DNA from: a virus
Reading direction: 5' to 3' (one strand)
Length of the DNA: 21,751 nucleotides
IMG/VR virus record: IMGVR_UViG_3300047497_000002
Coordinates: 1 to 21,751 of that record
In this document: positions 1,036-20,160 of the stretch, in pieces
Position numbering within the stretch: position 1 is the stretch's first letter
Layout of the letters: each line of letters starts with the position of its first letter
Program-made: the position numbers and the translations under genes
The notes under the pieces: model-generated
Told to the model about the DNA's origin: nothing
Seen by the model: only the letters and a program-made list of their open reading frames with translations
Database searches by the model: none

Positions 1036-1854
1036 TCAATTGACGAGCTGATAAGAGACGACGATGTGCGCCGGCGCGATGCGCTCGATCAGGCATTGCA
1101 GCGGCGAAATGTCGGGATCACACGTGATCGGCATGTCGGCGAACGCGAGATCGGCAAGCGCCGGCGTCTGCGCGCCGCCCTGATAGGCCGGGCTCTCGTT
1201 TAGATGCACGATGATCTCAATGTGACTCGGAATAGCCGGGCCGCCGGCGGTCGCGTTGCCGGCGCAGCAACCGTCGGCGAGCGCGCCGCCCAACGTGTCC
1301 GGCGCGGCGTCGCCTTGCGGCTGAAACGCATCGGTAAAAACGCCGGGCGCAAAAGCGGGCTGTTGAACCGGCCAATAACCAGAGCCGGGACAGCCCTCGA
1401 CCGGCGAGCATTCAATGATCCAGCCGTTCGCCGCGCACAGTTCCTGATACAGCTCACAGCGCCGGCCGCCGAGAGCTGCGACCTTGACGCAGAGATCGGG
1501 ATAAGGATCGCAATCGTCCGGCAGGCCATACTCGGCCATCCAGAGATCGTTGGTCAGCGTTTGCGTCGCGCACCAAAATTCCAGCCGCAGCGCGCAAAGC
1601 TGCGTCTCGAGATAATTGCGCACGGCGCCGAGCGCCGCGACGAAACCCATTTGCGTAAAGCCGGGATTATCCGACCAGTCGTCGAGCGACGGGATCCCGC
1701 TCAAACTGCCGAGCCACGCCAGGAAGCGCGGCAGCATGGCGCGATCATTCGCCGGCCAGGCGCGGCCGCGCGGGAGGAGCTGCGCGGTCGCGTCGATCGA
1801 CTGCTCGAGCGTCGGGCACTCGAAAGGCCCCGGCGGCGATGCGCACGTTGTCAT
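1036..1854 (-). CDS. Mu gp48-like baseplate protein (YmfQ / DUF2313 family)
   Basis: 272 residues. Near the N-terminus it has the family's recognisable LLPRGRAWP segment (about residues 26-34) followed by a helical region containing LPRFLAWLGSL. The C-terminus includes PSHIEIIVHL and ends IAPAHIVVSYQLVN, matching the last strand typical of Mu gp48/YmfQ proteins. It sits directly after the gp47/baseplate J gene and before the fibre gene, the Mu order, and should link the baseplate wedge to the tail fibres. It is longer than Mu gp48 (about 190 residues). The extra length is mainly in the second half and is rich in cysteine: I count 14 Cys in the protein, including one CC pair, which is unusual for a baseplate protein. 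The ATG at 1854 lies 18 bases after the gp47 stop. Confidence 0.85.
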   Translation of the reverse strand: MTTCASPPGPFECPTLEQSIDATAQLLPRGRAWPANDRAMLPRFLAWLGSLSGIPSLDDWSDNPGFTQMGFVAALGAVRNYLETQLCALRLEFWCATQTLTNDLWMAEYGLPDDCDPYPDLCVKVAALGGRRCELYQELCAANGWIIECSPVEGCPGSGYWPVQQPAFAPGVFTDAFQPQGDAAPDTLGGALADGCCAGNATAGGPAIPSHIEIIVHLNESPAYQGGAQTPALADLAFADMPITCDPDISPLQCLIERIAPAHIVVSYQLVN

Positions 1855-1872
1855 GACTGCAGCTCGCGGCGC

Positions 1873-3018: not shown

Positions 3019-3030
3019 TCTGCAAAACCC

Positions 3031-3618
3031 CTAGAGTAGCGGCCTGGGCGCGTTGGCAATCTGCTTCCAAAGCAGTGCAAAGCGCTGCTCGAAAGCTATT
3101 CCGCCGTCGCTGCCGAATAGCGAAACCGAAAGATCCGTGCGGCCGAATTGCTCGTTCAAAGCGGCATCGACTTGCATGCCGGCGACAGCGCCTTGCGTCA
3201 TGAGCGGCGTCAGCGCGTCGATCGCGAAACTCTGCGCCCATTGATCAATGCCGACGCCGGCGGCGACGAGCGGCGCGCGCTCGAGCAGCCAAAGCCAAGA
3301 TCCGAGCTGTTGCTCGCCGAGATCGGCGCGCACGTCGACGCCGTCGCCCCACCATCCGCGATTGTCGCCGTCGGCGAGATAGGCGAGCGGATGATCCGGC
3401 GGCACATATTTGTCGGTGAACAGCGCCAAATAAACCGCCGTGCCGAGCCCGTTGATCGCCTGCAGGCCACCAACATTGAGCGCATTGTTCGGCGCAAAGG
3501 CGAGGATCCAGTCGCAGACGAAATCGGTCCCGTCCTCGATCGAGCGATGCACGCTATCCCACAGCAAAAAGGGATCAGGCGCGCAGCCCTCGTTAGCGCG
3601 GATCAAAAGCTTTGACAT
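3031..3618 (-). CDS. Mu gp46-like baseplate protein
   Basis: 195 residues. Central motifs are the family signature: GTAVYLALFTDK (59-70), DNRGWWGD (85-92) and GSWLWLLERA (106-115), followed by a helical stretch ending in a beta-rich C-terminus. Mu gp46 is a small baseplate protein resembling the gp25/gpW wedge component that connects the baseplate to the sheath. This version carries about 50 extra residues at the N-terminus (DPFLLWDSVHRSIEDG region) before the usual start of similarity. The ATG directly follows the TAA of the upstream gene (TAAATG), suggesting translational coupling. Confidence 0.88.
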   Translation of the reverse strand: MSKLLIRANEGCAPDPFLLWDSVHRSIEDGTDFVCDWILAFAPNNALNVGGLQAINGLGTAVYLALFTDKYVPPDHPLAYLADGDNRGWWGDGVDVRADLGEQQLGSWLWLLERAPLVAAGVGIDQWAQSFAIDALTPLMTQGAVAGMQVDAALNEQFGRTDLSVSLFGSDGGIAFEQRFALLWKQIANAPRPLL

Positions 3619-4263
3619 TTACGGCCAGCCCGTCGCGACGGTCGCCGCGATAACGGCGGCCACATTGGCGCAAGCCGCGATCGTGGCCTGCCGGCTCAAA
3701 CGAATGCCCTGCAGCGTAACGCGCCGGGTGATGATCGCATAAACAAGATTTGCAACGTCAGGCGGCGAGAGCGAAACAGGCGATGTCGCGCCGATCGGCG
3801 TCCAGTTAATCGACGGCTCGAGAAAGACCGGCGCCGGCTCGGCCACGCCGGAAACCGAGCCCGGCCCGGTAAAATTCACGCCGCCGCTGCCGTCCGACGA
3901 TGCGGAGATCGTTGAAAGCGCCGTGTTCGTGCTGTTGACAACCTCGTTGATCCGCTCCGTCAGCCCGGATAGGGCGGCCGAAAATGCCGTATTCGACGCC
4001 GACCAAACGGCGAACTGCGTGGCGAGCGTCAGCGCATTGACCGTTTCGTCGCGCGCATCCCAATTGTAGGCGCCGGCGGTCACGGTCAAAGCGATCGGCG
4101 CCTGCCGCTTGGCGTGAAAGATCGCGTCGGCGAAATTCGATTTGGCGAGCTGCGCCGCCGCGAGCGTCACGCCGGCGGTGCCGAGCAGCGCGTCGATCGA
4201 GGCCTCGGCGGCCGTGAGCGCGCCGCTTGTCAGCGTCGCGGCGTTCATCGGATCAATAATCAT
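3619..4263 (-). CDS. Unknown protein between gp45 and gp46 in the baseplate cluster
   Basis: 214 residues, not recognised with confidence. The sequence is rich in Ala, Thr, Ser and Val. The first half is helical in character (ALTAAEASIDALL, LAAAQLAKSNFADAIFHAKR). Residues around 67-92 (YNWDARDETVNALTLATQFA) recall phage tail proteins in which a decorated insertion module is followed by a DUF4376-like helix pair, but I would not assign that. The C-terminus has a conserved-looking helical end (RRVTLQGIRLSRQATIAACA...). The ATG overlaps the upstream gp45 stop as ATGA and its TAA abuts the gp46 start, so it is firmly in the structural operon. Mu has no gene here. A baseplate or fibre-associated role is inferred from position only. 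Confidence 0.8.
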   Translation of the reverse strand: MIIDPMNAATLTSGALTAAEASIDALLGTAGVTLAAAQLAKSNFADAIFHAKRQAPIALTVTAGAYNWDARDETVNALTLATQFAVWSASNTAFSAALSGLTERINEVVNSTNTALSTISASSDGSGGVNFTGPGSVSGVAEPAPVFLEPSINWTPIGATSPVSLSPPDVANLVYAIITRRVTLQGIRLSRQATIAACANVAAVIAATVATGWP

Positions 4264-4838
4264 CCGATCCTCGCATAAACGTAAGGCGACGGCCCGCTTT
4301 GCGTCATGACCTGGTCGAATACGCCGCCGTTGTTCGGATTGCCGCCGAGATAGACGATCTGACCTTTCGGATCGACATAGACGTTTCCGCCGTCGACCGT
4401 GATCGTGAGATCGCCTGACTTAACCTCGAATGAGCTGGCGCTCGCGGCCGTGACCGCAACGCCGCCCTGCTTTGTCGTGACGGCAATGCCGCCGGCGCCT
4501 TTCATCCAAACGACATTGCCCTTGTCGTCATAGAGAACGGCATTCCCGCTCGGCAGATTTTTCTGACGATATTGCGGATGTTCGCCGCCGATGAATTGCG
4601 CACGATCGGAGCGGCCGCCGAGCGATTTAAGGATGCCTTCCGACTGCGCCGGCGGATTAGATGAAAAGCCGTGCGGCAGAATGCGCACCACTTTGCGCGG
4701 CATGTCGCTCGCCAGGCCCTGCAGATCGACGAGCTGTTGCGGGCCGCTATCGTCGACTTTCAGGATCGTCGCCCGGCGCAGGCCGCCGAGCGTCGCGTCC
4801 TGGTTTTCCATGGAGCGCACGAGCCAAGAGTGAGACAT
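4260..4838 (-). CDS. Mu gp45-like baseplate spike protein
   Basis: 192 residues, essentially the length of Mu gp45 (about 196). It starts with a short helix, then an OB-fold-like beta region (RRATILKVDDSGPQQLVDLQGL). The family signature follows: GGRSDRA, GGEHPQYR, KNLPSG and AVLYDDKGN (about residues 74-108). After that come alternating polar and apolar short strands (GGIAVTTKQGGVAVTA, GDLTITVDGGNVYVD), typical of the triple-stranded beta helix of a membrane-piercing spike. Mu gp45 is the trimeric spike that punctures the outer membrane. The start lies 9 bases after the gpP stop and its own stop overlaps the next gene. I did not see the His-x-His iron-binding tip found in some spikes. Confidence 0.92.
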   Translation of the reverse strand: MSHSWLVRSMENQDATLGGLRRATILKVDDSGPQQLVDLQGLASDMPRKVVRILPHGFSSNPPAQSEGILKSLGGRSDRAQFIGGEHPQYRQKNLPSGNAVLYDDKGNVVWMKGAGGIAVTTKQGGVAVTAASASSFEVKSGDLTITVDGGNVYVDPKGQIVYLGGNPNNGGVFDQVMTQSGPSPYVYARIG

Positions 4839-4847
4839 GATCGACCG

Positions 4848-5903
4848 TCACTCGCTCTTGAACTTGCTCGACCAGGCTTTGCCCGACTTGCCGGCGCTGC
4901 CGCCCTTGCCGCCGAGCGCCTGCGGATCGCACAGACTTAGATGCGCGATCGAGCCTTGCTGTCGGCTCTGCGAAAACTCGACGCGCTCGATCGCCATGTC
5001 CTGTTGCACGTCGAGAAACGGGCTGTCGACGTAGGTCAAATTACCCGGCGCCCAGAGCTGGCCGCCCTCGTCGTGAAAGCCCTGCACTTCGATATGCGCT
5101 TTCAAAGCGTGACCGGCCTCGCGCGCGAGCCGCCACTCGGCGCGATTTTGCGCGCGCGTGGCGTCGGTATCCTCGTCGATCACGACAACGGACGGCCGAT
5201 AGCGGCCGACCGCATCGTCCGTCGCTGTCTGCTCGATCTGCGTGTTCTGCGCGCCGTTGCCGCGCGCCGCCTGGCCGCGGGCGATCACATGCGAATGCCG
5301 GCCGGCCCAGTTATGGTCCGCCTCGAGGCCCTTGCAATTGTAACCCTCGAGCAGCGGCGAATTGCGCGCCTGCGACAGCCGCGTGATGTTGATCGAGCCG
5401 TCGGCCTGGCCGGTCAAGACGAGGCCTTGCTGCCGGCACAGTTTTTCGATGCAGCGAAAAACCGTCTCGCCCGGCGTGATCTGATAATGCGGGATCGGCT
5501 CGAGCGCCTGGTCGCTCTTAAAGCCGATGCCGAACTTGTCGAGCGCCTGCGCGATCTGCAGGACGTTCTGATTCTCGAAATAGCCGGTTTCGTGCACGGC
5601 CGAGGAGTCGATCGCGTCCTGCCCCTTGCCGCGGCCCGACACGTGAATGATCGCCTCGTTGTGCTCGTGCAATTTCGGCTGATAGCGATCGACATAGCCG
5701 GTCACGAGCAGATCGCCGCCGGCATAGATCGAGACTTCCGTGCCGCAGGCAAAAACCCAGGCGGTCGCGCTCGGCCCGGCGGCCGCGGCGATCGCCAGCG
5801 AGAACGAGCGCGCGGCCTCGTTGGCGCCGGCGGCGACCGCGACGTGCTCGAAAGCAGAATAACGCAGGCCGCCGGCGGCGACCGTGACCAGCTCCGGCCC
5901 CAT
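4848..5903 (-). CDS. Baseplate hub protein, Mu gpP / late control D-like
   Basis: 351 residues. The N-terminus is a split-barrel type beta domain (VTVAAGGLRYSAFEHVAV...). Features of the gpP/gpD hub family include TGYVDRYQPKLHEHNEAIIHVSGR (about residues 68-91), GETVFRCIEKLCRQQGLVL (about 144-162) and GYNCKGLEADHNWAGRHSHVIARGQ (about 187-211). Late regions contain AEWRLAREAGHALKAHIEVQGF and GQLWAPGNLTYVDSPFLDV, the usual end of the hub barrel. The hub ties the tail tube to the spike encoded next. The C-terminal tail is Gly/Ser/Lys-rich. The ATG stands 7 bases after the upstream TAG without a clear ribosome site, suggesting coupled translation. Confidence 0.9.
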   Translation of the reverse strand: MGPELVTVAAGGLRYSAFEHVAVAAGANEAARSFSLAIAAAAGPSATAWVFACGTEVSIYAGGDLLVTGYVDRYQPKLHEHNEAIIHVSGRGKGQDAIDSSAVHETGYFENQNVLQIAQALDKFGIGFKSDQALEPIPHYQITPGETVFRCIEKLCRQQGLVLTGQADGSINITRLSQARNSPLLEGYNCKGLEADHNWAGRHSHVIARGQAARGNGAQNTQIEQTATDDAVGRYRPSVVVIDEDTDATRAQNRAEWRLAREAGHALKAHIEVQGFHDEGGQLWAPGNLTYVDSPFLDVQQDMAIERVEFSQSRQQGSIAHLSLCDPQALGGKGGSAGKSGKAWSSKFKSE

Positions 5904-5910
5904 GGGTATG

Positions 5911-6240
5911 CTATCGCCGCGTTAACGGAGGCGCTGCGGTTGGCCATCCATGATGCCAGCAGAACGCGGCATAGGCCGCGACGTCGCGTGGATCGCCTTT
6001 GGCGACGTGCTCCAATAATTGGCGCTGACAATCCGCTTCCCAATTCGGATCTAGCCAGTCATCTTTGCGTCCATATTTTGCCTCGGCCGCGCGTAGTTTT
6101 TCGAGCAATGCAGCGGAAAAACGAGACACGAGATCGGCAAGAGGGTCGGTCGGGTTCTTCAATGCTCTTGCCTGGACCGGAAGCTGACGGCGCGCTTCGG
6201 CCAGCGCTTCTTTCATTATTTGCTCGGTGCCTTCACTCAT
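5911..6240 (-). CDS. Small accessory protein with KGDPRDVAAY motif, function unknown
   Basis: 109 residues from the ATG at 6240, chosen because GGGAGGGAG lies just upstream; an in-frame ATG at 6273 would add 11 Arg-rich residues and has no better site. The first half is helical and charged. The second half contains EKLRAAEAKYGRKDDW (47-62), NWEADCQRQLLEH (66-78), KGDPRDVAAYAAFCWHHGWPT (81-101). From memory, this combination occurs in small phage and prophage proteins and as a domain attached to some proteins annotated dATP/dGTP diphosphohydrolase, where it is not the catalytic part; no catalytic motif is visible here. Mu has nothing between gpN and gpP. The stretch around 6040-6240 looks more AT-rich than its neighbours, consistent with a later insertion. 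Confidence 0.78.
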   Translation of the reverse strand: MSEGTEQIMKEALAEARRQLPVQARALKNPTDPLADLVSRFSAALLEKLRAAEAKYGRKDDWLDPNWEADCQRQLLEHVAKGDPRDVAAYAAFCWHHGWPTAAPPLTRR

Positions 6241-6273
6241 CGCTCGCTCCCTCCCGCGCCCGTTTCGGCACAT

Positions 6274-7614
6274 TTACAGCGGCGTCGGCGGCCAGCCGGC
6301 CGGCAGGCCTGGCGCGTCATAGCCCGGCGCCAGCGCTTCAAACTGGCGCGGCATGAATGACGGATGACGGACCTTGTTGCGCAACACGAGATCGTAACAG
6401 CGCGTCGGATCCTGATAGATCTGCCAAGCGACGACGAGCGACGGCATTGCAAGCTGCGCCTCGATCGTCACGACCGGCGCAAGGTTTGTCATGAGCTGCG
6501 TCAGATAGTCGACGACGGCGCCCTGCAGCTCCTCGATCGCAACAAAGAGCTGCGCGAAATCCTGCCCGGGACATTCGTTCAGCTCGCGCTCGAAACGCTC
6601 GGCCGCCTCGGCGCGCGCGGTCACGGCGGACGGCCGATCGGTATAGGTGCGCGCGATCACGGCGTTCGCCCAGGCATTAAGCGCCATCAGGCGCGCGAGC
6701 TGCAGCGCGCCGGCGACGTTCGCCTCGGCCGCGGCGGCATTCGATGACAGCGCCGGCGACAGCGGCGTGACCGTTGCGAACGTATCGGCCAGGCTCGCCA
6801 TGGCATCTTGCGCGACGGCCGGATCCATCCCGTCGCCGAGCACGGTCACAGCCATATTGAGCGCGGTCGCGACCGCCGTCACGCCGTCGGCCGGCGCCGG
6901 CACAATGTCGAGCAGCGCGGCAAAATCGGTCAGATCCTGCGCAGCCGCGCCGTTCTGATCGAGCAGCGGATCGAGCGCATTATTGATCGCCTGCAGCGTG
7001 GTCGACACTTTTGCAGAGCTGTCAGTGTCGACCGGATAGGACGTGCGCACGGCGTCGATCGCGCCGATCACGGCGGCGACCTGGTCGACGGCCGCGGTCG
7101 CGACGAAATCCGGCTCGTCGAGCACGTCGATCATGACCGGCGCCGCCGCCACGATCGCATCGCCGAGCGCCGTTGCCGCGATCGCCGCGGCGTTGCCGAG
7201 ATACGGCACGGAGACGATCGCGCCGGCGAGGCCTTCGCGGACAAAGCGAACCTCGAAACAAATATAACCGTTGCGATCTTTGTCGCTCGTGCGCTTGAAA
7301 TTGACCAGGCGCACATTGACCGGGCCGGCGGTCGGAATGACCAGCACGCCCGGACCAGGCGTCACGAGAACGCGCTCGAATGCGCTCGACTGCGCGTCGG
7401 CGTCGTCGCCATGCACATAGGCGTTGCCGGAAAAATACCGCGGATCCTCGCCAAGATCCTCGTTGAACGGCTGATCACTGTTCGGAAAAACATGCGTGAC
7501 GATGCCACGGCCGCCTTGCGCCTCGTCGCGCTCAAACCAGAACGGAAAGCCCTTGTAAGACGCGCGCCAGAGCGTGCTTTGCCAGTCGCGCGCCGGCGTG
7601 TTGATCGAAGGCAT
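6274..7614 (-). CDS. Mu gpN-like tail/DNA circularisation protein
   Basis: 446 residues. Residues about 10-75 (DWQSTLWRASYKGFPFWFERDEAQGGR, then HVFPNSDQPFNEDLG and YFSGNAYVHGDD) match the N-terminal domain of the Mu gpN family, named DNA circularisation protein. In contractile tails this family forms a baseplate/tail hub ring between tape measure and gpP, and the gene order here agrees. A long Ala/Asp/Val-rich helical middle (about 130-330) follows, then a C-terminal part with conserved-looking RCYDLVLRNKVRHPSFMP. The ATG at 7614 follows the transglycosylase stop by 4 bases. The sequence shows family and position; any role in DNA circularisation is carried over from the Mu name. Confidence 0.87.
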   Translation of the reverse strand: MPSINTPARDWQSTLWRASYKGFPFWFERDEAQGGRGIVTHVFPNSDQPFNEDLGEDPRYFSGNAYVHGDDADAQSSAFERVLVTPGPGVLVIPTAGPVNVRLVNFKRTSDKDRNGYICFEVRFVREGLAGAIVSVPYLGNAAAIAATALGDAIVAAAPVMIDVLDEPDFVATAAVDQVAAVIGAIDAVRTSYPVDTDSSAKVSTTLQAINNALDPLLDQNGAAAQDLTDFAALLDIVPAPADGVTAVATALNMAVTVLGDGMDPAVAQDAMASLADTFATVTPLSPALSSNAAAAEANVAGALQLARLMALNAWANAVIARTYTDRPSAVTARAEAAERFERELNECPGQDFAQLFVAIEELQGAVVDYLTQLMTNLAPVVTIEAQLAMPSLVVAWQIYQDPTRCYDLVLRNKVRHPSFMPRQFEALAPGYDAPGLPAGWPPTPL

Positions 7615-7618
7615 GCGG

Positions 7619-8461
7619 TTACTTACCTCGCACTGCGCGACCGATGTCGCCGAGCGTGATCACGGGAGGCCTGCCGTCGCTGCGCCGCGCGAAAGCCTCT
7701 TTGCGCCGTTCCAGCTCGCGGCCCCAACCGGCCATAAAGCTGTCATGCGTCTGCGGCCCGCGCATGCCGGGATAAGGATTGCCGCCGATATTGGTCATTG
7801 CGCCGCGGGTGAAAAATCCGAGGCCTTGCTGATGGATCATGTACAGCTCGCGATCGGTCGGATCGCGGCCGTACAGCGCGCGAAAATGCGCCTTGTGGTC
7901 GGCAAACATGCGCGCGGTCGCCATGGCGTTATCGTGCGCGTTGTAAATGTCGCCGGCGCCATAGTGGCGCCACTCGTCGCGGCCTAGCTGAAAAAGCCCT
8001 TTGTATTGTGTCCGGCGCGTGCGGTTTGACGCCGGGTTCATGCTCGACTCGATCGAGGCGATGCCGCGCATCGTATTGACGTCGACGCCGGCGGCCTCCG
8101 CGGCATCGCGGATCGCGGCGTCGGTCGAGCCGTTCGCCGCGCCGTAAGGAATGCGCGGACTCGCCGGCGGCACGGCCTGCGATTTGGTCGGCGCCTTGGC
8201 GTCGTTCTGCTCGAGCGCGGCCGTGCGCTCACGCGGCGCCGGATGATAATAGGCGCCCCGGCGCGCGGCAGCATAATCGGACGCCGGCGCAACGGCGCCA
8301 GGCGCGTCGTCAGCGGCGCCAGGCGCGCCGAGATCCGACGTCGAAACCAGGCTCGCTTGCGGCACGCCGTCGCCGAGCTGGATCCGGTTATCAACGCGGC
8401 TCGAGACGGCCGACTGAAAATCGGTCGCGACGCCGACGTTAAGGCGGATATTGAGCGCCAC
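7619..8461 (-). CDS. Virion-associated lytic transglycosylase (SLT domain)
   Basis: 280 residues from a GTG at 8461, placed 9 bases after the tape-measure stop. The first 110 residues are low-complexity and probably a linker or virion anchor (Ala/Pro/Asp-rich). A lysozyme-like soluble lytic transglycosylase domain follows: AAGVDVNTMRGIASIESSMNP places the probable catalytic Glu at residue 138, with GLFQL (155-159), HDNAMATARMFADH (177-189) and ELYMIHQQGLGFF (205-217), the order seen in this fold. It would cleave the peptidoglycan glycan strand so the tube can cross the cell wall. In many phages this domain is part of the tape measure; here it is a separate gene just downstream of it. There is no signal peptide, fitting a virion part rather than a secreted lysis enzyme. 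Confidence 0.88.
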   Translation of the reverse strand: MALNIRLNVGVATDFQSAVSSRVDNRIQLGDGVPQASLVSTSDLGAPGAADDAPGAVAPASDYAAARRGAYYHPAPRERTAALEQNDAKAPTKSQAVPPASPRIPYGAANGSTDAAIRDAAEAAGVDVNTMRGIASIESSMNPASNRTRRTQYKGLFQLGRDEWRHYGAGDIYNAHDNAMATARMFADHKAHFRALYGRDPTDRELYMIHQQGLGFFTRGAMTNIGGNPYPGMRGPQTHDSFMAGWGRELERRKEAFARRSDGRPPVITLGDIGRAVRGK

Positions 8462-8470
8462 GGCTTTGCC

Positions 8471-10315
8471 CTACGGCGCCGGGCCGGCCTCCGGCATCGA
8501 AACGCCGGTCGAGCCCGCCGTGCCAGTGCCGCTAAACACGTTGATGCCGTTGCGCAGCGCCGAAACGATGCGGCTAACAAAATCTTCCGTCGGCGCGACC
8601 GTCACGTTCACATTGAGATCGGCCGAGCCCTTAACCTCGGCCGCGGGCATGCCGAGCGCCTTATGCACGTCGCCGAGCGAAAAATGCTGCGGGCCGCCGC
8701 CGAACAGCCACGGCAACAGCGGGCCGATCCCGCCGCCGGCCGTGCCGCGATCGCCGAACATGGTGCGCGAGCCACTGGCGCGCGCCGACAATTCCGTGCC
8801 GGCGACGGCCGCCATGCCGGCGCCGATCGCCGCGGTCGGAAAGACCGTCGAGGCAAGCCAGCCGGGCGCGCCGGCGGCCTGCGCGCCCTGCATGATGCGG
8901 ATCGCAGCCTCGCCGGAGAGATCCGCGGCCGCCTTGCTGCCGCCGCGGCCGAGGATCCAGCCGAGCCCGGAGCGCAGGCCCCACAAGCCCGCAGCGCCGG
9001 CGGCAGCCGCCGCGCCCGTCGCGCCCGCGACCAGGCCCGCCGCGGCACGGATCGGATGCTTGGCCGCAGCGTTTTCGAGAGCAATGATCCCGTCGGCGAT
9101 CTTATGCATCGCCGCGGCGGCAGGCTCAGCGAGCGGACTGCCGGCGACGGCGAGCAAGTTCTGAAATTGCTCCGTCACGCCCTGCCAGGCGATACCGACG
9201 TTTTTGTTAATGGCGTCGCGCGACTTGTCGGCGTCCGGCACGGACTTTTCGAGCGCAATATCCTTCTCGATGCTCTGTGCCTGCGAAATCAAAATGCCGA
9301 GGATCTGATCAGTCGTCGCTTTCGACGCGAGAACGGCGTTGATGTCGGCGAGCTGCTCTTTGCTCTTGTCGCCGCCGACTTTCGGCAGGAAAACCTTTTG
9401 CAGCCATTCGTAAGCGTTGTTCTTGAACAGATCGCTTTCGACCAGCGCGCCAGGCTGCACGCGCTTGATCAAACCGGCCTTGGTGAACTCGACCTTGCTG
9501 TTATCAAGCAGGCCGAATTTTTCCATAAGGTTCGCCGCGGCCAAGCTCATGTGACCGCCGACAAATTGCTGAAACATGGACGAGACGGCCGTGCCGGCCT
9601 GCGACCCGCCCATGTGCTGCATGAGCGTCGGACCAATAGCCAGGCGGAATTGATCGTTCATTGACTGGCCAGCGCCGCGGGAGTGCTGCGCAAATTCAAA
9701 GAAATCGTAAGGCCGCAGCGTGTCGCCAAATACGTTCATGGCGCGGCGCGTCAATTCCATATTCCGCTTGAACCGCTCGGGATCCTGACTCGCGCCGACG
9801 ATTTCCTCGCCTTTCATCAGCTTGTCGAAATCCTCGTCGAGTTCGGCGGCGCGGTTTGGATGCGCGGCAAGCACGTTCAAGCGCAGATTCAAAATCGGAT
9901 CGAGCAGCTTGGCGGCTTCCTCATAGGTGCCGACGATCGACCGCATATTGCGCAAGGCATGCAGGACCGTCGTTTGCGAGAAGGCTTGATAACGCTGCGA
10001 CAGCTCGAGCGACAGCCGGTTTGCGTCCGCCATTTCGGTCGGCGAAATGCCCGCTAGGATGTCGCGCATCTGTTCCTGCGCGCGATCGCTCGTCGCCTTG
10101 ACCGTCTCGTGAATGAGGCCCTCGAGCCCGCGAATGCCGCCGGCGCCGGCAGCGCCGGCAGCGACCGGCGCCAGCGTATAGGAGGCCGCGGCGCCGCCGA
10201 GAGAACGCATCGTTTGCGTCAGGCCTTTGACCTTGCGCGCGATCGACGCGAAGGCTTCGCCCGTTGCGTCGGTCGCTGTGATCCTGGCCTCGGCCTCAAT
10301 TATGCGCGGCGGCAT
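8471..10315 (-). CDS. Tail tape measure protein
   Basis: 614 residues from the ATG at 10315. I chose this start because TAGGAGG, a near-perfect ribosome site, lies 4 bases upstream; a longer frame from 10363 would begin with an unlike Arg-rich stretch that overlaps the chaperone extension. The N-terminus (IIEAEARITATDATGEAFASI) matches tape-measure starts of the Mu type. The rest is largely helical, with Ala-rich hydrophobic stretches at about 423-457 and 487-507 that could insert in the membrane during DNA entry. At about 0.15 nm per residue it implies a tail near 90 nm. It is short for the class, perhaps because the transglycosylase is a separate gene. It follows the chaperone genes as expected. 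Confidence 0.9.
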   Translation of the reverse strand: MPPRIIEAEARITATDATGEAFASIARKVKGLTQTMRSLGGAAASYTLAPVAAGAAGAGGIRGLEGLIHETVKATSDRAQEQMRDILAGISPTEMADANRLSLELSQRYQAFSQTTVLHALRNMRSIVGTYEEAAKLLDPILNLRLNVLAAHPNRAAELDEDFDKLMKGEEIVGASQDPERFKRNMELTRRAMNVFGDTLRPYDFFEFAQHSRGAGQSMNDQFRLAIGPTLMQHMGGSQAGTAVSSMFQQFVGGHMSLAAANLMEKFGLLDNSKVEFTKAGLIKRVQPGALVESDLFKNNAYEWLQKVFLPKVGGDKSKEQLADINAVLASKATTDQILGILISQAQSIEKDIALEKSVPDADKSRDAINKNVGIAWQGVTEQFQNLLAVAGSPLAEPAAAAMHKIADGIIALENAAAKHPIRAAAGLVAGATGAAAAAGAAGLWGLRSGLGWILGRGGSKAAADLSGEAAIRIMQGAQAAGAPGWLASTVFPTAAIGAGMAAVAGTELSARASGSRTMFGDRGTAGGGIGPLLPWLFGGGPQHFSLGDVHKALGMPAAEVKGSADLNVNVTVAPTEDFVSRIVSALRNGINVFSGTGTAGSTGVSMPEAGPAP

Positions 10316-10323
10316 AAGGCCTC

Positions 10324-10799
10324 CTATTTCAGAACGCCGGCGGACACGCCGCGGGCGATCCAATAATCAATTTCGGGAAACGTCAGGTCGGCAGCCTCTT
10401 TGAGACTGACGACGTGCAGATGGAAAACGAGCAGCTCTAGGTGTTTTTCGATTGCGCTGACGCTTCGTCGAACTTTTGCGCCGCGAGCCGTGCGGACGTA
10501 AAAAAACCGAGCACGGCGTCCTTAACGCGCAAACCGTCGGCCAGGCCGAGCTGCTCGAGCAACAGCTCGTCGACTTTCGGCCCCGGACTGTCATAGACGA
10601 CACAGGCGTCGACGTATTGTTTTACGATCTCGACGTTCTCGCTCTGAAAAACGAGCCCGTCGCGCGAGAAGGCCCGCGACCACGGATCGCCGAAACTCAT
10701 CAGCTCTCGGGCAGTCGGCTCACGCAGCCAGATTTCCTTGACCATGCCGCCATGCCCGACAATCGGCTCGAGCAGCGTGATTTTGAGTTTGTTTGCCAT
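10324..10799 (-). CDS. Tail assembly chaperone, -1 frameshift fusion product
   Basis: Reading frame 0 from 10799 through codon 100 (Phe-Phe at the T7 run), then slipping back one base, gives 158 residues ending at the TAG at 10324-10326. The 58-residue extension reads YVRTARGAKVRRSVSAIEKH, LELLVFHLHVVSLKEAADLT, FPEIDYWIARGVSAGVLK. It has protein-like composition, whereas the region after the frame-0 stop is otherwise a 121-base gap before the tape-measure ATG at 10315. No ATG, GTG or TTG was found in the extension frame after the slippery site, which argues against an independent gene. In Mu, P2 and lambda tails the chaperone pair is made by frameshifting at this same place, upstream of the tape measure, and guides tube polymerisation around it. 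Coordinates span both frames. Confidence 0.8.
10437..10799 (-). CDS. Tail assembly chaperone, unshifted product (Mu gp41-like)
   Basis: 120 residues in frame 0 ending at the TAG at 10437-10439. The N-terminal half has the family segment EIWLREPTARELMSFGDP (22-39), typical of the Mu gp41 / P2 gpE tail assembly chaperone. The middle is helical, and residues 95-104 (AVLGFFTSAR) contain the frameshift point. This short form should be the major product and a cytoplasmic assembly factor absent from the finished virion. It lies between the tube gene and the tape measure, as in Mu. Confidence 0.88.
   Translation of the reverse strand: MANKLKITLLEPIVGHGGMVKEIWLREPTARELMSFGDPWSRAFSRDGLVFQSENVEIVKQYVDACVVYDSPGPKVDELLLEQLGLADGLRVKDAVLGFFTSARLAAQKFDEASAQSKNT
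10500..10506 (-). promoter_or_regulatory. T_TTT_TTT programmed -1 frameshift site
   Basis: Seven T on the minus strand in exactly the X_XXY_YYZ phase (codons GGT TTT TTT of the chaperone). An AAGGA Shine-Dalgarno-like sequence lies 12 bases upstream (10519-10523), a position that stimulates -1 frameshifting in known bacterial cases. A weak CCGC/GCGG stem could form just downstream, but it is small. Phage P2 uses a similar T-rich slip site in its chaperone gene. Confidence 0.78.
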
Positions 10800-10835
10800 T
10801 GGTCGCCTCGCTCTATTTTTTTATCATGCCGAGAA

Positions 10836-10861
10836 CGCGCGCAGTTTTAGGACTGCGCGCG
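10836..10861 (-). other. Hairpin over the tail-tube stop codon
   Basis: A perfect 10-bp GC-rich stem (CGCGCGCAGT with its complement) and 6-base loop. The tube gene's TAA lies at the loop edge. No T tract follows, so a factor-independent terminator is unlikely; an RNA 3'-end stabiliser or a barrier to the next gene is possible. The gap to the next gene is 47 bases. Confidence 0.6.
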
Positions 10862-11233
10862 GAACTGATAGGTGCCGCCGGCGATGCGCAGGCCGGAGAC
10901 GTCGCCGGTCGAAATGTCGACCGACGGTTTGCCGATAAAGCGCGTGCCGGTGAACAGATGCGTGCGACCGTTGGTCTGCTCGACGATCGTCACGTTGCCG
11001 TACTGCTGATTGAGCAGCGACCAGTTGATGTCGCCGACATTGCGCAGCGTCATTTCGGCGCCGACCAGCTCCGGTTTGGACTCGTAAGCCGCCGAACCGT
11101 CCTGGTTTGCCTTGGCCGAGACTTCGGCGGTCGCGGGATCGAGTTTGATCGCGGCCTCGGTCGCGACGAGCTTGAGCGAGCCGAACGCGATCGTCACGCG
11201 GCCGCCGAATGAACCTTGAATCTCTGCGCCCAT
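10847..11233 (-). CDS. Tail tube protein, Mu gpM-like
   Basis: 128 residues, near Mu gpM (about 118). It is a compact beta-rich protein: GGRVTIAFGSLKLVATEAAIKL at the start, PELVGAEMTLRNVGDINWSLL in the middle and GRTHLFTGTRFIGKPSVDISTGDVSGLRIAG near the end, where the final loop plus strand is typical of the tube fold. Its place between sheath and chaperone fits the Mu order sheath-tube-chaperone-tape measure. Hexamers would stack into the inner tube and be expelled when the sheath contracts. Hairpins lie on both sides, consistent with a separately tuned, high-copy product. Confidence 0.9.
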   Translation of the reverse strand: MGAEIQGSFGGRVTIAFGSLKLVATEAAIKLDPATAEVSAKANQDGSAAYESKPELVGAEMTLRNVGDINWSLLNQQYGNVTIVEQTNGRTHLFTGTRFIGKPSVDISTGDVSGLRIAGGTYQFRAQS

Positions 11234-11272
11234 TTTTCAGATCTCCGGTTTTGAGCGGGTGAAAGGGAAAGG

Positions 11273-11294
11273 CGGCCCGCATTGCTGCGGGCCG
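11273..11294 (-). terminator. Hairpin after the sheath gene, weak terminator
   Basis: 8-bp perfect GC stem (CGGCCCGC with its complement), loop AGCAAT, followed on the minus strand by CCTTTCCCTTTC. The interrupted T tract makes a leaky terminator or RNA-stabilising hairpin more likely than a strong stop. It lies 14 bases after the sheath stop and about 40 before the tube start. Confidence 0.55.
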
Positions 11295-11308
11295 ACGTCG
11301 CGTTTTTC

Positions 11309-13144
11309 TTAGCCCTGCGACTGGAAGCCAGGCGCGGACGGTACAAGCGGGCCGCCGCCCGGCGACGTGTAGGAGCGGAACGCGGTAACGTTCGCCGCGA
11401 AAACCCGCAATTGCCCGACCACGTTCTCGGGGATGTAGGCGTCGCAGCGATCGGGATCGAGATCGTTGCGCTTGGTGACGACGTATTGCTGAAACAGCTC
11501 GGGATGCTGCGCGACGCCGAGCTTGCACAGATCCTGATAAGCGAAAATCAGCGTGTTCGCGATCTTCGCCGGCGTCGCGACATTCGGATCGTCGTTCGGA
11601 TCCTCGTCGGCAAACGCCGCGCGGCCCCATTGGTCGGTGACCTGAGTGCGGAAGTAGCGCATGGAGTACATGCCTTGCGCCATCGTCTCGACGTCGAGGA
11701 ACGTCTGATCGGGCGTGCCGGCCGCGGTCTTTTGATACATCGTGACCATGCGGTCGATCTGGCAGACATTCGCCGGCCCGACCTTGCCGGCGGCAATGCC
11801 GTCGGTATAGAGCGCCTGACGCTCGGCCGTAGTCCACCATGTCGTCTGGTCGCGCGGCGGCAACACGCCAGGCAGCGCGAGCGTCTGCAGCGGCCGCGAC
11901 AGCTCCGGCGGATCCGCCAGGTGCAGAACCTCGATCCCGCACAACGAGGCGGCGACCTCCCATGGCGGGGTTGGCGACGCGCCGGACCCGAACCCGCCGA
12001 ACGTGGTCACGTGCTGCGAGTTTTGGGAGTTGCCGAACGTGACCAGCGTCGACAGCGTCTGGCCGAGATAGGCCGTCGTGTAATGACCATAGAGCTGTTG
12101 CGCCGGCGACCAGCGGCCGTCGTTGTCAGACAGAAAATCGGCAATCGCGGCGATCGACTGCGCGTCGGCGTAGGGCGCGGCAATCCAGTCGTATTCGATC
12201 GAGCCGAGCGTCGCCAAGGGCGCGACCAGCGACGGCACGCCGGAGCCGCCGGTCATGGCATTGACGAAAGCGACCTTGGCCGTCGCGGTCACGGCCGTTC
12301 CCGCGCTCGACGACGTGATCGCGCTACCGCCGACAGTCGCGGCTAGTTCAAACGTGCCGGCGCTGCCATTGACGGCGACGGCGTAATAGGTGGTCCCGGC
12401 CGTGAAGCCGCCAGGCGCCGTCGTGCCGCCGAGCACGACCGGCGTGCCGTTGGCAAACCAGCTCGGTAAGCCGCCGGCCATGGTGAACACGCCAGGCGCC
12501 GCGACCGTGACCGTGACATTTCCGGTCACGCCCGCATTGAGCACGTTCGGCTGATCGGTCGCGACGAGAACCTCGACGCCGTTGCCGAGCGCGCCGACAT
12601 GCGCAAAGGTCAAGTCGGCCTTTGCCGTGTTGGTGCCGTCGATCGCGGCGACCATCGGCACATTCGAGCCGACCGGCGCATTCGCAGCCGACAGCGCATT
12701 GATCGCGGCGACAGCATTGGAGCACACCATCGCCGACGTGTCGGACGAATTGACCTGGAATGTGACCTCGCGGCCCATGACGTACAGGACGCCGACGCCG
12801 GTCACGCCAGGCGCCGAGAAAATGATGCTGCCGGTCGCGGCCGCGCCGGCGGGATCGGCGAGCGGCAGCGACCAAAACGGTTGCAGCGGCGCCGCCTTGA
12901 CGGCGGCGTCATACATGCCGACCAGCATGGAATTTGCGCCGAACTGCGCGACCGCGTCGGCGTGCGACATGATCGGGCCGTAAACCTGGCCGGCGGTCGC
13001 AGCGCCGGCGGACGTCTTTTGCCCGACGAGCAGCGGCCGCGGGAAATTCTCATAGACCGAGCCGCCGGAATTGAACTCGCCCCAAAAGAACGGGACCAGG
13101 ATATTCGACGGGACTTGATTGAAAGGAACCTCGGAGAGACTCAT
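11309..13144 (-). CDS. Contractile tail sheath protein, Mu gpL-like, with inserted domain
   Basis: 611 residues from the ATG at 13144, preceded by GGAG at 9 bases; an upstream TTG at 13159 is less likely. The N-terminus (PFNQVPSNILVPFFWGEFNSG, then PRPLLVGQK) matches Mu-type sheaths, and SIEYDWIAAPYAD (about 315-327) begins the conserved central domain. The C-terminal half contains PGVLPPRDQTTW, YMVTMYQKTAAGTPDQTFLDVET-like residues (about 460-485) and a final conserved helix-strand region. The protein is over 100 residues longer than Mu gpL (495). Extra length lies mostly at residues about 215-288, where LPSWFANGTPVVLGG, TTYYAVAV and GTFELAAT form a module I recall from unrelated phage structural proteins. 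It should form the contractile outer layer of the tail. Confidence 0.92.
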   Translation of the reverse strand: MSLSEVPFNQVPSNILVPFFWGEFNSGGSVYENFPRPLLVGQKTSAGAATAGQVYGPIMSHADAVAQFGANSMLVGMYDAAVKAAPLQPFWSLPLADPAGAAATGSIIFSAPGVTGVGVLYVMGREVTFQVNSSDTSAMVCSNAVAAINALSAANAPVGSNVPMVAAIDGTNTAKADLTFAHVGALGNGVEVLVATDQPNVLNAGVTGNVTVTVAAPGVFTMAGGLPSWFANGTPVVLGGTTAPGGFTAGTTYYAVAVNGSAGTFELAATVGGSAITSSSAGTAVTATAKVAFVNAMTGGSGVPSLVAPLATLGSIEYDWIAAPYADAQSIAAIADFLSDNDGRWSPAQQLYGHYTTAYLGQTLSTLVTFGNSQNSQHVTTFGGFGSGASPTPPWEVAASLCGIEVLHLADPPELSRPLQTLALPGVLPPRDQTTWWTTAERQALYTDGIAAGKVGPANVCQIDRMVTMYQKTAAGTPDQTFLDVETMAQGMYSMRYFRTQVTDQWGRAAFADEDPNDDPNVATPAKIANTLIFAYQDLCKLGVAQHPELFQQYVVTKRNDLDPDRCDAYIPENVVGQLRVFAANVTAFRSYTSPGGGPLVPSAPGFQSQG

Positions 13145-13161
13145 TGCGGCGTGCTCCAAAT

Positions 13162-13190
13162 AAAAACGGCCGCCTCAGAGGGCGGCCGTT
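13162..13190 (-). terminator. Intrinsic terminator upstream of the sheath gene
   Basis: 10-bp perfect stem AACGGCCGCC with its complement, 6-base loop, then TTTTTATTTG on the minus strand. This is a convincing rho-independent terminator shape. It ends about 18 bases before the sheath start codon, leaving only the ribosome site between them. Confidence 0.8.
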
Positions 13191-13224
13191 GCGGGACGGA
13201 TCGGGTTTGTTTGATGCGCGAGCG

Positions 13225-13494
13225 CTACTTGCTCTTGCTTGATGCAGGCGCCGGCGGCGTCGGATCTGACGGTCCTGATGACGCGGCAGCGGCAGGCTTG
13301 TCGTCCGGCGCCGAGACGGGCGCGGACTGCGCTTTCATCTGTTCCTGCGTCGCGTCAATCACGTCGCCCTGCATAATGCGCCGAATCCAGAACAGATTGC
13401 CCGGCTTCCATTCGCCGCTTTCGGCCAGCGGCTTTTTCGTGATCGGATCGCGCTGCAGCATGCCAGCCCGCGCTTTGACAAAGACGTTAGCCAT
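13225..13494 (-). CDS. DUF2635 family small protein, Mu gp38-like
   Basis: 89 residues. The N-terminal half has the family pattern: VFVKARAGMLQRDPITKKPLAESG followed by NLFWIRRIMQGDVID (residues 4-46), as in the small Mu gp38 proteins just upstream of the sheath gene. The C-terminal half is a Pro/Ala/Ser tail, probably disordered. The ATG overlaps the preceding gene's stop by 8 bases (ATGGCTAA) and has GGAG 8 bases upstream. Function of the family is not established, though position suggests a tail assembly or neck role. Confidence 0.82.
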   Translation of the reverse strand: MANVFVKARAGMLQRDPITKKPLAESGEWKPGNLFWIRRIMQGDVIDATQEQMKAQSAPVSAPDDKPAAAASSGPSDPTPPAPASSKSK

Positions 13495-14800: not shown

Positions 14801-15862
14801 TTAGTTGCTCGAAAAGACCTTCACGACGGCCTCGGGACGGCGGCAGATCGGCAGCGGATTGCTTTCCGATTTGAGCTCGATCCCTTCGCCGTGGTCTTTG
14901 ATCTTCGGCGAGATATAGATCTGCTGGCCGCGCTGATTGACGAAGCGCAGATCGTGCGCCGGCGCATAATAGGTGCGGAACATTTTGCGCGTGCCGGTCG
15001 GAAAGGCCGAGCCGGTCTTGCTCGACCAAAACGACGTGTTGGTGAGCGTCGTCGCGGTCGGCGACGACTTGATCGGCGCCGTGCCGTAATATTCGCGGAA
15101 CAGAATGTTGCCGAACTTGAACTGCCGGCCCCACATATTGCCGGCGCTTTCCTTGCGCACAAGCTGCGCCAGCATGAGCGCCTGCTCGGCGTTCACATAG
15201 AACGCCTGCACGTTCGGATGCGTGATCAACGCCTCGAAAAACACAGGATCGACGATGCACTCGATCCCGTTCATGACTTCGCCCTGCAGATTTGTCGTCA
15301 CGGCCTGCCACACGGCGGCGCACTTCGACTGAATGTCAGTCCCGCTCGTGCCGAGGGCGAAATCAACCGTGGTTTGATTGACGCCGAGCGCAGTATAAAG
15401 ATTGATCAGCGTCTGCGAATTGCCGTCGACGATCGTGCCCTGCAGAGCGCCGCAGCGCAGCCATTCGAGCGTGACGTCGTGGTTCGCCTTGATGTCGACA
15501 AGACGCTTGCTGACTTCCTCGTCAACCGTCGTGAGGCGCTTGACGTCGTCCGTGACGATCAGAATGTCCTGAATGTCCTGCGGCGTGATCAGATCCAGCT
15601 CGGGGAAATGCGGGATCTCGATAAAGATCGACTGCGCCGTGCGCGGAAGCTGCGGCGTGGCAGGCGCGCCGCGCTCTTTGGCCGGCAGAACGCGCAGCGT
15701 GTGGTTTTCGTAAGTCAGCTCGACGATGCGGCTGACGCTGCCCTGCACGGGAAACAGATTCAGCTCGTTAACCAGGCCATAAAGGTTCGGGATCCGGTCG
15801 ACGCGCTCCGTCAGTTGCGTGTAGGTGTACGGAAAAATAAGGCTCAGATCTTCACCAGACAT
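14801..15862 (-). CDS. Major capsid protein, lambda gpE family
   Basis: 353 residues, near lambda gpE (341). Early residues LSLIFPYTYTQLTERVDRIPNLYG and ENHTLRVLPAKERGAP, then FIEIPHFPELDLITPQDIQ (about 80-98), are the standard start of this family, with the E-loop and N-arm in the HK97 fold. The middle has the spine helix region DIKANHDVTLEWLRCGALQGTIVD. The end reads GQQIYISPKIKDHGEGIELKSESNPLPICRRPEAVVKV, the usual C-terminal P-domain strand. It forms the icosahedral shell around the Nu3-like scaffold and is then locked by gpD. GGAG sits about 7-10 bases upstream. The gene has a hairpin on its 5' side and a terminator on its 3' side. Confidence 0.95.
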   Translation of the reverse strand: MSGEDLSLIFPYTYTQLTERVDRIPNLYGLVNELNLFPVQGSVSRIVELTYENHTLRVLPAKERGAPATPQLPRTAQSIFIEIPHFPELDLITPQDIQDILIVTDDVKRLTTVDEEVSKRLVDIKANHDVTLEWLRCGALQGTIVDGNSQTLINLYTALGVNQTTVDFALGTSGTDIQSKCAAVWQAVTTNLQGEVMNGIECIVDPVFFEALITHPNVQAFYVNAEQALMLAQLVRKESAGNMWGRQFKFGNILFREYYGTAPIKSSPTATTLTNTSFWSSKTGSAFPTGTRKMFRTYYAPAHDLRFVNQRGQQIYISPKIKDHGEGIELKSESNPLPICRRPEAVVKVFSSN

Positions 15863-15894
15863 TGGACTCTCCGTATGGCGCGCGACCGCGGCCC

Positions 15895-15912
15895 CGTTTG
15901 CTCACGCAAACG
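15895..15912 (-). other. Hairpin in the leader of the capsid gene
   Basis: Perfect 7-bp stem CGTTTGC with its complement and a 4-base loop, about 33 bases before the capsid start, in the largest non-coding gap of the window (142 bases). No sigma-70-like promoter is evident there. It could protect or modulate the capsid mRNA. Confidence 0.5.
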
Positions 15913-15970
15913 AGGCGATCGGAGCGGCGGCTTTCGGTTTCAGGGATTGCGGTTGCGCGGGTTTGTTTGG

Positions 15971-15999
15971 TGAGGCGGCGCCGCGCGCGCGCCGCCTCA
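15971..15999 (-). other. GC-rich hairpin after the decoration protein gene
   Basis: An 11-bp perfect stem (TGAGGCGGCGC with its complement) around a 7-base CG loop, just after the decoration gene stop. On the minus strand it is followed by ACCAAACAAACCC, not a T tract, so it is not a typical intrinsic terminator. Possible RNA stabiliser or pause. Confidence 0.55.
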
Positions 16000-16004
16000 A
16001 TTCG

Positions 16005-16682
16005 TTACGACGGGCGGCAGATAATGCCGGCGGCGGCGAGCTGCGCGAGCGCGGCGGCTTGCTGCGTTCCGGTAATGCCCGACGGCCAGATCAGGCCATC
16101 GGTCAAAAGCACGGCCTGGCGCTCGACCAGAAGCACGGAGGCGTCGCTACCGGACGGCACGGTCGTCTGCTTCACGACGACGCCCATCGCCACGGCCGAG
16201 CCGTCGGTCGCCGTCGGATTGAGCGGCACGACCTTGCCACTGCCCGCAGCGACCACGATCGTAAAGCCGTCGCCGGCAGCAAAGGCCGTGCCGCCGGCGG
16301 TAATGGTAAAGCCGAGCTGATTGGCGAACGCCGTGCCGGTCGCCCCTTCGCCGACGATCTTGCCGCTCGGATCAATGACATTGTACTTCGTCGCGGCGAG
16401 GAACTCGATCGAATAGGTGCCGTTCTGGATCCCGGCTTGCGCCGTCACCGCGCCAACGGTGCCGTTGCCGGTGTTGCCGGCGTTGGCAGTCGCCGAGCCT
16501 GGCGTGCCGGCGGTCTGCTTGCCCATGACGGTGCCGACGTCGAGCAGCCCGGCGATCGCCTGACTGGCGGCGCAATTGGCAAGGGCGGTTTCCTGCTCGA
16601 AAGAAAATTCCTCGGCCGGAAACCATTTCAGGACTGCGGTCTGCAGCGTCTGACGATTGACGGTTTTCGTATAGAGAGTCAT
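16005..16682 (-). CDS. Head decoration protein, lambda gpD-like, with inserted domain
   Basis: 225 residues, twice lambda gpD (110). The outer parts fit gpD: EEFSFEQETALAN, AGLLDVGTVMGK (about 45-56) and, after the extra piece, VVPLNPTATDGSAVAMGVVVKQT with ASVLLVERQAVL and a final helix ending GIICRPS. Residues about 58-150 form a Gly/Thr-rich insert (GNTGNGTVGAVTAQAG, GTYSIEF, TGTAFANQLGFTITAGG, AAGDGFTIVVAAGSG), a beta module I recall from other phage structural proteins. gpD binds threefold sites and stabilises the expanded capsid, so the insert would face outward. AGGAG lies about 10 bases before the ATG. A GC hairpin follows the gene. Confidence 0.85.
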   Translation of the reverse strand: MTLYTKTVNRQTLQTAVLKWFPAEEFSFEQETALANCAASQAIAGLLDVGTVMGKQTAGTPGSATANAGNTGNGTVGAVTAQAGIQNGTYSIEFLAATKYNVIDPSGKIVGEGATGTAFANQLGFTITAGGTAFAAGDGFTIVVAAGSGKVVPLNPTATDGSAVAMGVVVKQTTVPSGSDASVLLVERQAVLLTDGLIWPSGITGTQQAAALAQLAAAGIICRPS

Positions 16683-16758
16683 GGCGGATCAGCTCCTAGT
16701 GCAGCTCGAGCGGATCACGCGCGAGCGGGTTTAACGAACGTGCGGGAGAACGGGCGCT

Positions 16759-17247
16759 TTACTTGCGCAGCGACTTTTCGCCGTTTGTGGTGCGGCTCAC
16801 TTCGCGCTCGAGCGCGGCGTCGAGGCCGGCGAGCCGGCTTTTCTCGGCGTCACCACTTGCGCTTTCGACAGCGTCGACTTTCGGCGCGTGATTGGTCATG
16901 AGCGCATCGAGCCGCGACGTCGGCGCGGCCTCGGCCTTTGGCGCCGCGGCGAGAATGCCGATCGCGGCCTCGGCCGTCATGTCCGTGTCGAATGCAAGAT
17001 GCTGCGCGAGCGCTTCGCGGCCCTTGGCGTGCTCGCTGCCGAGAATTGCCTTGGCGCGAGCGCGCTCGTCGGCCTTTGCATTGCCGGCAGGCTCTGCGGC
17101 GGGCGCGGCAGCCGGCGCTGCAGGCGCGGCGGCGGCCGGAGCTGCAGGCGCCGGAGCTGCAGGCGCGGCGGCGGCGGCCGGAGCTGCAGCGGCAGCCGGA
17201 GTGAGGGCAGCCGCGTGCACGGCGGCGAGTCCGCTTTCTTTCGACAT
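16759..17247 (-). CDS. Capsid scaffold protein (Nu3-like), separate from the protease
   Basis: 162 residues from the ATG at 17247, with GGAG 8 bases upstream. Residues 12-54 are nearly all Ala and Pro, probably a disordered linker. Residues about 57-103 (KADERARAKAILGSEHAKGR, EALAQHLAFDTDMTAEAAIG) match the C-terminal domain I recall on S49-type prohead proteases of alphaproteobacterial phages, and a charged helical end follows (LDAALEREV). In lambda the scaffold Nu3 is translated from an internal start in the protease gene. Here it follows the protease in the same frame after one UGA. It should fill the procapsid and be removed by the protease. Confidence 0.78.
   Translation of the reverse strand: MSKESGLAAVHAAALTPAAAAAPAAAAAPAAPAPAAPAAAAPAAPAAAPAAEPAGNAKADERARAKAILGSEHAKGREALAQHLAFDTDMTAEAAIGILAAAPKAEAAPTSRLDALMTNHAPKVDAVESASGDAEKSRLAGLDAALEREVSRTTNGEKSLRK
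17086..17214 (-). repeat. Ala/Pro-coding low-complexity repeat in the scaffold gene
   Basis: Imperfect direct repeats of a unit like GCGCCTGCAGCTCCGG coding PAAPAAAAP blocks, with CTGCAG recurring four times. The region is likely to vary in length by slippage. It codes for the linker between the scaffold start and its conserved C-terminal domain. Confidence 0.7.
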
Positions 17248-17280
17248 TGGATTTTCTCCGATTAGCTTGAGGAAGGATCA
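17248..17280 (-). other. In-frame UGA junction between protease and scaffold
   Basis: From the protease stop TGA at 17278-17280 to the scaffold ATG there are ten sense codons (SFLKLIGENP) and no other stop, in the same reading frame (18198 minus 17247 is divisible by 3). The GGAG ribosome site falls inside this short stretch. Reading through would give a 479-residue protease-scaffold fusion. Confidence 0.9.
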
Positions 17281-18198
17281 GCCGACGCGCGCCAAAAATT
17301 CATTGAACGCGAGTTGCGGCCGGACAACGCCGTCAGCGAGCCCAGCCTCGACGGCAGCGTCGCCGCGGAAAACGTCGGCCTCGGTTTCGAGCGCGGCTTT
17401 TTTCGACAGCCGGCGCCCGCGAAAGCGGGCGACCGTGCCGGCGAACAGATCGCGGGCCGCGTCAATGTCGCGCTGGAAGCGCGCCGCGACGTCCGCGGAT
17501 AACGGTTTGAACGGAGAGCCGTCGGCCTTGCGATCGCCCGACGTGATCACGGTCACGCGCATGCCGTCATTTTCGATCGCGCGCGAGAAATCGACGTGCA
17601 TGGTGATGACGCCGATCGAGCCGGCATAGCCGGTCGCAGGCAGCACGATCTGACGCGCTGCCGAGGCGAGCAAATAACCGGCCGAAAGCGCATTGTCCGT
17701 CAGGATCGCGATCGTCGGCTTGGCGGCAGACAGCTCGCCGATCATTTCGGCCGTATCGAAAGCGCCGGAAACCTCGCCGCCGAAACTGTCGATCTCAAAC
17801 ACGACGCCGGCGACGCTCGGATCCGCCATAGCGGCGGCGACTTGCGCTTGAATGCCTTGATACGACGTTTCGCCGGAAAAACTGCCAATCCAGCCGCCCT
17901 TATGCACGAGCGAGCCCTCGATCGCGATCACGGCGACCGAGCCGATCCGCGTCAAGATCTGATCGCGCGTCACGCCGCGCGCCTCGAGCCGCTTATCGTA
18001 GCCAAGGACGCCCATGTTTTCAGACGGCCGCCCCTCGGCGAACGCGACATGATCGAGCGCCGGCGGCCCGTCGATCACGAGCTGACCGTCGACCAGGCGG
18101 CCGCCCAGGCCGGCGACAATCGCGACGGCCTTGCCGGCGTCGACCATCAGCGGCGTGTTAAAGACGCGCGCGGCAATGTGAGGCAAAAGAACGTTCAT
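17278..18198 (-). CDS. Prohead protease, S49 family (lambda gpC-like)
   Basis: 306 residues from the ATG at 18198, with AGGAG 8 bases upstream. The fold and catalytic residues of the S49/SppA family are visible: DSFGGEV (137-143), LSAGYLLASAA with probable nucleophile Ser172, YAGSIGVITMHVD (191-203), and GDRKADG with the probable general base Lys224. It cleaves the scaffold and portal N-terminus during procapsid maturation. Lambda gpC is 439 residues because the scaffold domain is fused to it. Here the frame stops at an UGA after the catalytic domain and the scaffold is a separate gene directly downstream in the same frame. The portal gene ends 11 bases upstream, as in lambda. Confidence 0.92.
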   Translation of the reverse strand: MNVLLPHIAARVFNTPLMVDAGKAVAIVAGLGGRLVDGQLVIDGPPALDHVAFAEGRPSENMGVLGYDKRLEARGVTRDQILTRIGSVAVIAIEGSLVHKGGWIGSFSGETSYQGIQAQVAAAMADPSVAGVVFEIDSFGGEVSGAFDTAEMIGELSAAKPTIAILTDNALSAGYLLASAARQIVLPATGYAGSIGVITMHVDFSRAIENDGMRVTVITSGDRKADGSPFKPLSADVAARFQRDIDAARDLFAGTVARFRGRRLSKKAALETEADVFRGDAAVEAGLADGVVRPQLAFNEFLARVG

Positions 18199-18209
18199 CG
18201 CCGTAGCTC

Positions 18210-20150: not shown

Positions 20151-20160
20151 GGTCACGCTC

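Follow-up and report, generated by a model that had tools for sequence, protein, structure and literature searches.

The tail assembly chaperone gene of this viral DNA very probably belongs, judging from its sequence, to the G/GT (P2 E/E+E′) kind with programmed −1 ribosomal frameshifting. The window, by which we mean the whole stretch that was analysed, is an entire IMG/VR virus record of 21751 bases, and the gene lies on its minus strand. The slip site, its phase, its conservation and the coding selection on the extension are directly supported. Most ribosomes would translate positions 10799–10437 and produce a chaperone of 120 residues. A minority would slip back one base in tandem, with tRNA-Phe in both the P and A sites on T_TTT_TTT, and read 58 more codons, giving a 158-residue fusion whose end lies in the tape-measure ribosome site. 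If the system works as in lambda, the part common to both products would bind the tape measure protein, and the tail tube protein would be recruited by the extension, in a fixed proportion. That slippage takes place, its rate and these binding roles are what we infer.

The 0 frame of the gene occupies 10437–10799 (minus strand; ATG at 10799, stop codon ending at 10437) and encodes 120 amino acids, 100 before the slip site and 20 from codons unique to the unshifted product. It is flanked by the genes for the major tail protein and the tape measure protein, as in chaperones of the G/GT type. The tail tube protein is encoded at 10847–11233 (PF10618, E = 1.3e-6) and the tail sheath protein at 11309–13159 (phrog_165, 2.3e-114; the listed open reading frame begins at TTG and its start is assumed), both on the minus strand. 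The tape measure protein (8471–10315, minus strand, ATG at 10315) was assigned by position and length, and a Pfam search with it gave no match with an E value below 0.05. Its ribosome site, read from the sequence, is AGGAGG at 10320–10325 on the same strand. The order of genes in the chaperone/tape-measure region is matched in Mu, SfV and Rhizobium phage PPF1.

Against a chaperone profile made from relatives, with the window excluded, the 0 frame scores E = 2.8e-25, and it matches the tail protein family phrog_166 at 1.7e-7. For PF10109 (Phage_TAC_7), the chaperone reaches 24.2 bits with a cut-off of 25 and the fusion 22.6 bits; 32 of 55 alignment members match this family (E up to 0.01), the best at 2.7e-18. 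The fold predicted for the chaperone part has a mean pLDDT of 92.2. Solved structures searched by sequence gave a single match at E = 0.61, and a search of the PDB by fold gave none at E = 0.001 or below. In BFVD, fold matches have probabilities of 0.99–1.00 but E values of about 0.01, none reaching 0.001; they include a Burkholderia phage tape measure chaperone, Mu FS-gp41 and a Bacillus phage tail assembly chaperone.

The earlier note had placed seven T in the correct slippery phase at 10500–10506, and this is borne out: the run (10506–10500, minus strand) opens on the last base of a Gly codon and reads GGT TTT TTT, an all-T X_XXY_YYZ heptamer. Since the −1 frame is open only downstream of a TAA at 10524, a slip must fall between that TAA and the 0-frame stop, and the T run is the sole in-phase X_XXY_YYZ heptamer in this interval. 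The slip-site sequence is GGTTTTTTT, for which GGCTTCTTC would be a suitable altered control. Window genes, counted without the sheath gene (whose assumed start is out of frame), use GGT for 31 of 486 Gly codons and TTT for 94 of 194 Phe codons, so that GGT TTT TTT would arise by chance at about 1.5% of Gly-Phe-Phe sites. The heptamer alone is not diagnostic, as other window genes carry in-phase TTTTTTC (20674), GGGTTTT (3016) and GGGTTTC (1648). The TTTTTTC at 20674 (minus strand) sits in the terminase gene and is followed by a −1 frame of 33 codons, probably by chance.

Used as a query, the chaperone finds few relatives (four loci among viral contigs, none confirmed among genome contigs, one phage record and one plasmid). 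Because it is so poorly conserved, we recruited relatives through the sheath, which is independent of the slip site, from viral contigs and genomes (among them Bradyrhizobium, Rhodopseudomonas and Afipia). Nine of the 115 loci numbered L020–L134 were dropped, their contigs ending within about 200 bases past the sheath match (L031, L039, L058, L093, L107, L110, L111, L119 and L125). The 106 kept, the window and L003, L004, L009, L010 and L015–L019 make up 116 loci. Profiles of 68 distinct chaperone parts and 64 distinct extensions were derived from 96 loci, the window not among them.

Both parts are present in 113 of the 116 loci, and in all 113 the extension lies in the −1 frame. Those short of one or both are L045 (no extension match), L100 (truncated) and L015, which is Mu (no chaperone match and a weak, out-of-family extension match at E = 1.6). 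The −1 relation is partly built in for the training loci; among the 19 loci outside training, 16 carry both parts, and the frame is −1 in 16/16, the window included. An in-phase canonical heptamer stands at the junction in 109 of the 113 loci and beyond it in L072. The overlap contains no canonical heptamer in L057, L132 or L017, although each of them has a −1 extension; it is just 10 bases long in L017, which is Paraburkholderia phage IPK (an UNVERIFIED record). Conservation of the slip site in relatives makes a chance origin untenable.

Since the 116 loci include near-duplicate contigs, the 110 that bear a heptamer were reduced to 64 representatives at 80% chaperone identity. Alignments A5, A6 and A7 hold the window with 41 (distant and enteric ones omitted), 54 and 48 of the other 63, respectively. 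The heptamer is TTTTTTC in 32 representatives, TTTTTTT in 26, GGGAAAC in 3, AAAAAAC in 2 and TTTTTTG in 1. In L040, L042 and L108 (GGGAAAC) and in L041 and L064 (AAAAAAC), other canonical −1 heptamers thus occupy the same junction; in the latter two, the 0-frame stop TGA directly follows the heptamer. In all 59 T-type representatives, an NNT codon precedes Phe-Phe, where per-locus codon usage predicts 14.0, and the first Phe codon is TTT, where 16.1 of 59 are expected. The residue before Phe varies (Gly 32, Asp 12, Ser 9, Arg 3, Ala 2, Val 1). Although T-type representatives were picked for carrying a heptamer, this choice does not account for the codon excess, since the overlap lacks any heptamer in just 3 of 113 loci.

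The make-up of these sites also bears on transcriptional slippage, in which RNA polymerase would add or drop U residues on the T run, leaving some mRNAs in frame with no ribosomal slip. The homopolymer of seven T in the window, and of eight in L003 and L013, would suit such a process. In 33 of the 64 representatives, however, the run stops at six T before a C or G, in three it is GGGAAAC and in two AAAAAAC, all short for polymerase slippage, and the X_XXY_YYZ phase is perfect. A hairpin 3–7 nt past the site in many relatives moreover fits ribosomal stimulation. Since so many relatives have six T or another heptamer, we favor ribosomal over transcriptional slippage, consider the latter improbable and reject it as the main route.

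In this family, 60-mers beginning 5 nt past the heptamer are more stably folded than their shuffled versions, with a mean folding z score of −1.23 and 21 of 64 below −2; sheath-coding controls have a mean of −0.12 with 13 of 252 below −2. Within the 45 bases that follow the heptamer, strong hairpins beginning 3–7 nt past the slip site occur in L037, L040, L116, L118 and L021, long-stem placement in relatives being the best of three and hence favored. Downstream of the window's own site, we find no hairpin: folding is no better than in shuffles (z = +1.24, +0.97 and +1.1), and a stimulatory hairpin there is rejected. The earlier note had also pointed to an AAGGA 12 bases upstream of the heptamer. 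The Shine-Dalgarno-like motif is indeed at that position (10519–10523, minus strand), but its strength is no better than that of synonymous codons (−4.5 kcal/mol, where synonymous shuffles average −3.9 and 70% of them do as well; p = 0.7). Averaged across 59 representatives, the strength is −5.3 versus −4.55 kcal/mol for synonymous sequences, a small difference among related sequences. Strengths of the Shine-Dalgarno-like site and of the hairpin are uncorrelated across the 64 representatives (rho = −0.06, p = 0.66). Chaperones of the G/GT type do not depend on either stimulator. One possible if doubtful account is that the lineage keeps the slip site near-invariant while stimulators are interchangeable, a hairpin in many members and a Shine-Dalgarno-like site in some; with neither clearly selected in the window, U7 alone would set its product ratio.

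A −1 slip on the T run would join 100 residues to the 58 codons of the extension (10324–10500, minus strand); the translation agrees with the 158-residue product previously proposed, which would end at a TAG (10326–10324) before the tape-measure ATG at 10315. The proposed overlap with the tape-measure ribosome site holds as well, the TAG falling within its Shine-Dalgarno sequence. Against a profile of 64 distinct extensions that excludes the window, the −1 frame scores E = 4.1e-9, pointing to real coding sequence. Between related extensions (25 pairs, 1286 codons), changes at −1 frame positions 1, 2 and 3 number 215, 171 and 488, and between the window and L020 they number 19, 10 and 31 over 49 codons, with 27 identical residues. 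Such a third-position excess indicates protein-level selection on the extension. Its conserved core consists of a D.LVF stretch and a T.SE..YW..RA motif. On its own, the window extension matched no Pfam or PHROG family, PF06528 (Phage_P2_GpE) included; 11 of 42 extensions match PF06528 at E up to 1, the best at 4.7e-4. The search for homologues proposed earlier thus found them in related phages, in the −1 frame and behind a slip site conserved at the nucleotide level. A lack of homologues would have spoken against the frameshift; with homologues in this frame, a conserved site and apparent protein-level selection, that objection fails, and the frameshift reading of the gene is supported. In L003 (1344–1616), the −1 extension continues 109 bases beyond the tape-measure start, unlike in most relatives. 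In L009, 242 bases separate the end of the extension from the next long open reading frame, and the gap between chaperone and tape measure may hold something else.

Alternatively, the extension could be a separate small gene with its own start, or one reached by reinitiation past the chaperone stop. It had been described as free of ATG, GTG and TTG; ATG and TTG are absent, but there is one in-frame GTG at 10347. This is codon 52 of 58, only 7 codons from the end, and would yield 7 residues. Non-standard in-frame codons (ATC at 10452, CTG at 10434 and others) could also be invoked, but by eye no Shine-Dalgarno-like sequence precedes the ATC and CTG codons. As a separate gene would also leave the synonymous conservation of the heptamer unexplained, we reject this reading, which we regard as scarcely credible. 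Just as implausible is that one ordinary gene was split by a mutated or misread T run, with nothing programmed about it: homopolymers are prone to such errors and the window is an IMG/VR virus record, but the −1 relation in 113/113 loci, including the Bradyrhizobium sp. BTAi1 genome (L128), SfV (L016) and PPF1 (L018), refutes this at the level of the family.

Lambda, P2 and many other phages are known to use −1 frameshifting in their tail chaperone genes, and Mu a −2 shift (PMC5009743); of the three precedents originally invoked, P2 and lambda therefore apply in direction and Mu does not. P2 E/E+E′ is like the window in its location between tail tube and tape measure, its −1 direction and six or more T after GG. 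The P2 record annotates the −1 site, and P2 carries the closely similar GGTTTTTTG. The P2 slip site is T_TTT_TTG, whereas that of the window is T_TTT_TTT; slippage at TTTTTTG with no hairpin is described for P2 in PMC3091744, and the window shares the lack of a downstream hairpin. The extension cores are similar (hhalign probability of 83.8 for the extension profile versus P2 E′), whereas the chaperone parts have low overall sequence similarity (hhalign probability 71.8). Mu gp41/FS-gp41 resembles the window in gene order, tail sheath homology and predicted chaperone fold. It differs by its −2 shift (PMC5009743) and by a junction lacking an in-phase T run; a Mu-like −2 shift in the window is rejected because the conserved extension lies in the −1 frame.

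SfV, PPF1 and a prophage-like Mesorhizobium plasmid each have TTTTTTC or TTTTTTT in phase, followed by a −1 extension that stays open as far as the tape-measure start and that their records leave unannotated. Unlike the window, lambda has a non-contractile tail and a different slip site. Lambda G/GT, a chaperone with a −1 extended form (PMC5009743), is like the window gene in logic. In PaMx73, a Pseudomonas Mu-like phage, a −1 slip is predicted on T_TTT_TTC (PMC4378225), and its tail is that of a siphophage, unlike the window's. For two tail chaperone genes from another cluster, measured frameshifting amounted to 6% and 7% (PMC3711429), and frameshifting tail chaperone genes were used to train PRFect (PMC10885494). 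No title or opening of an abstract in the literature searched treats the slip site of this phage group. The mechanism is already known in phages, to which this gene adds one more clear, unexceptional example that leaves the understanding of frameshifting unchanged. The finding corrects the annotation of the window gene and of relatives with a blank extension (PPF1, SfV and the Mesorhizobium plasmid among them), and the 64 representative sites, with their natural heptamer and hairpin swaps, are usable to measure the determinants of frameshift efficiency.

Further neighbors of the gene are a transglycosylase-like protein, a DNA_circ_N/baseplate hub protein, a Gp44-like hub, a Mu gp45-like spike and baseplate J, and the tail genes are predicted to encode a contractile tail of the Mu/SfV type. 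The head genes are lambda-like (GpA terminase, Phage_portal_2, S49 protease, HDPD and Phage_cap_E). The window is thus a mosaic of a lambda-like head gene set (14801–21459) and a Mu/SfV-type contractile tail gene set (1036–13494).
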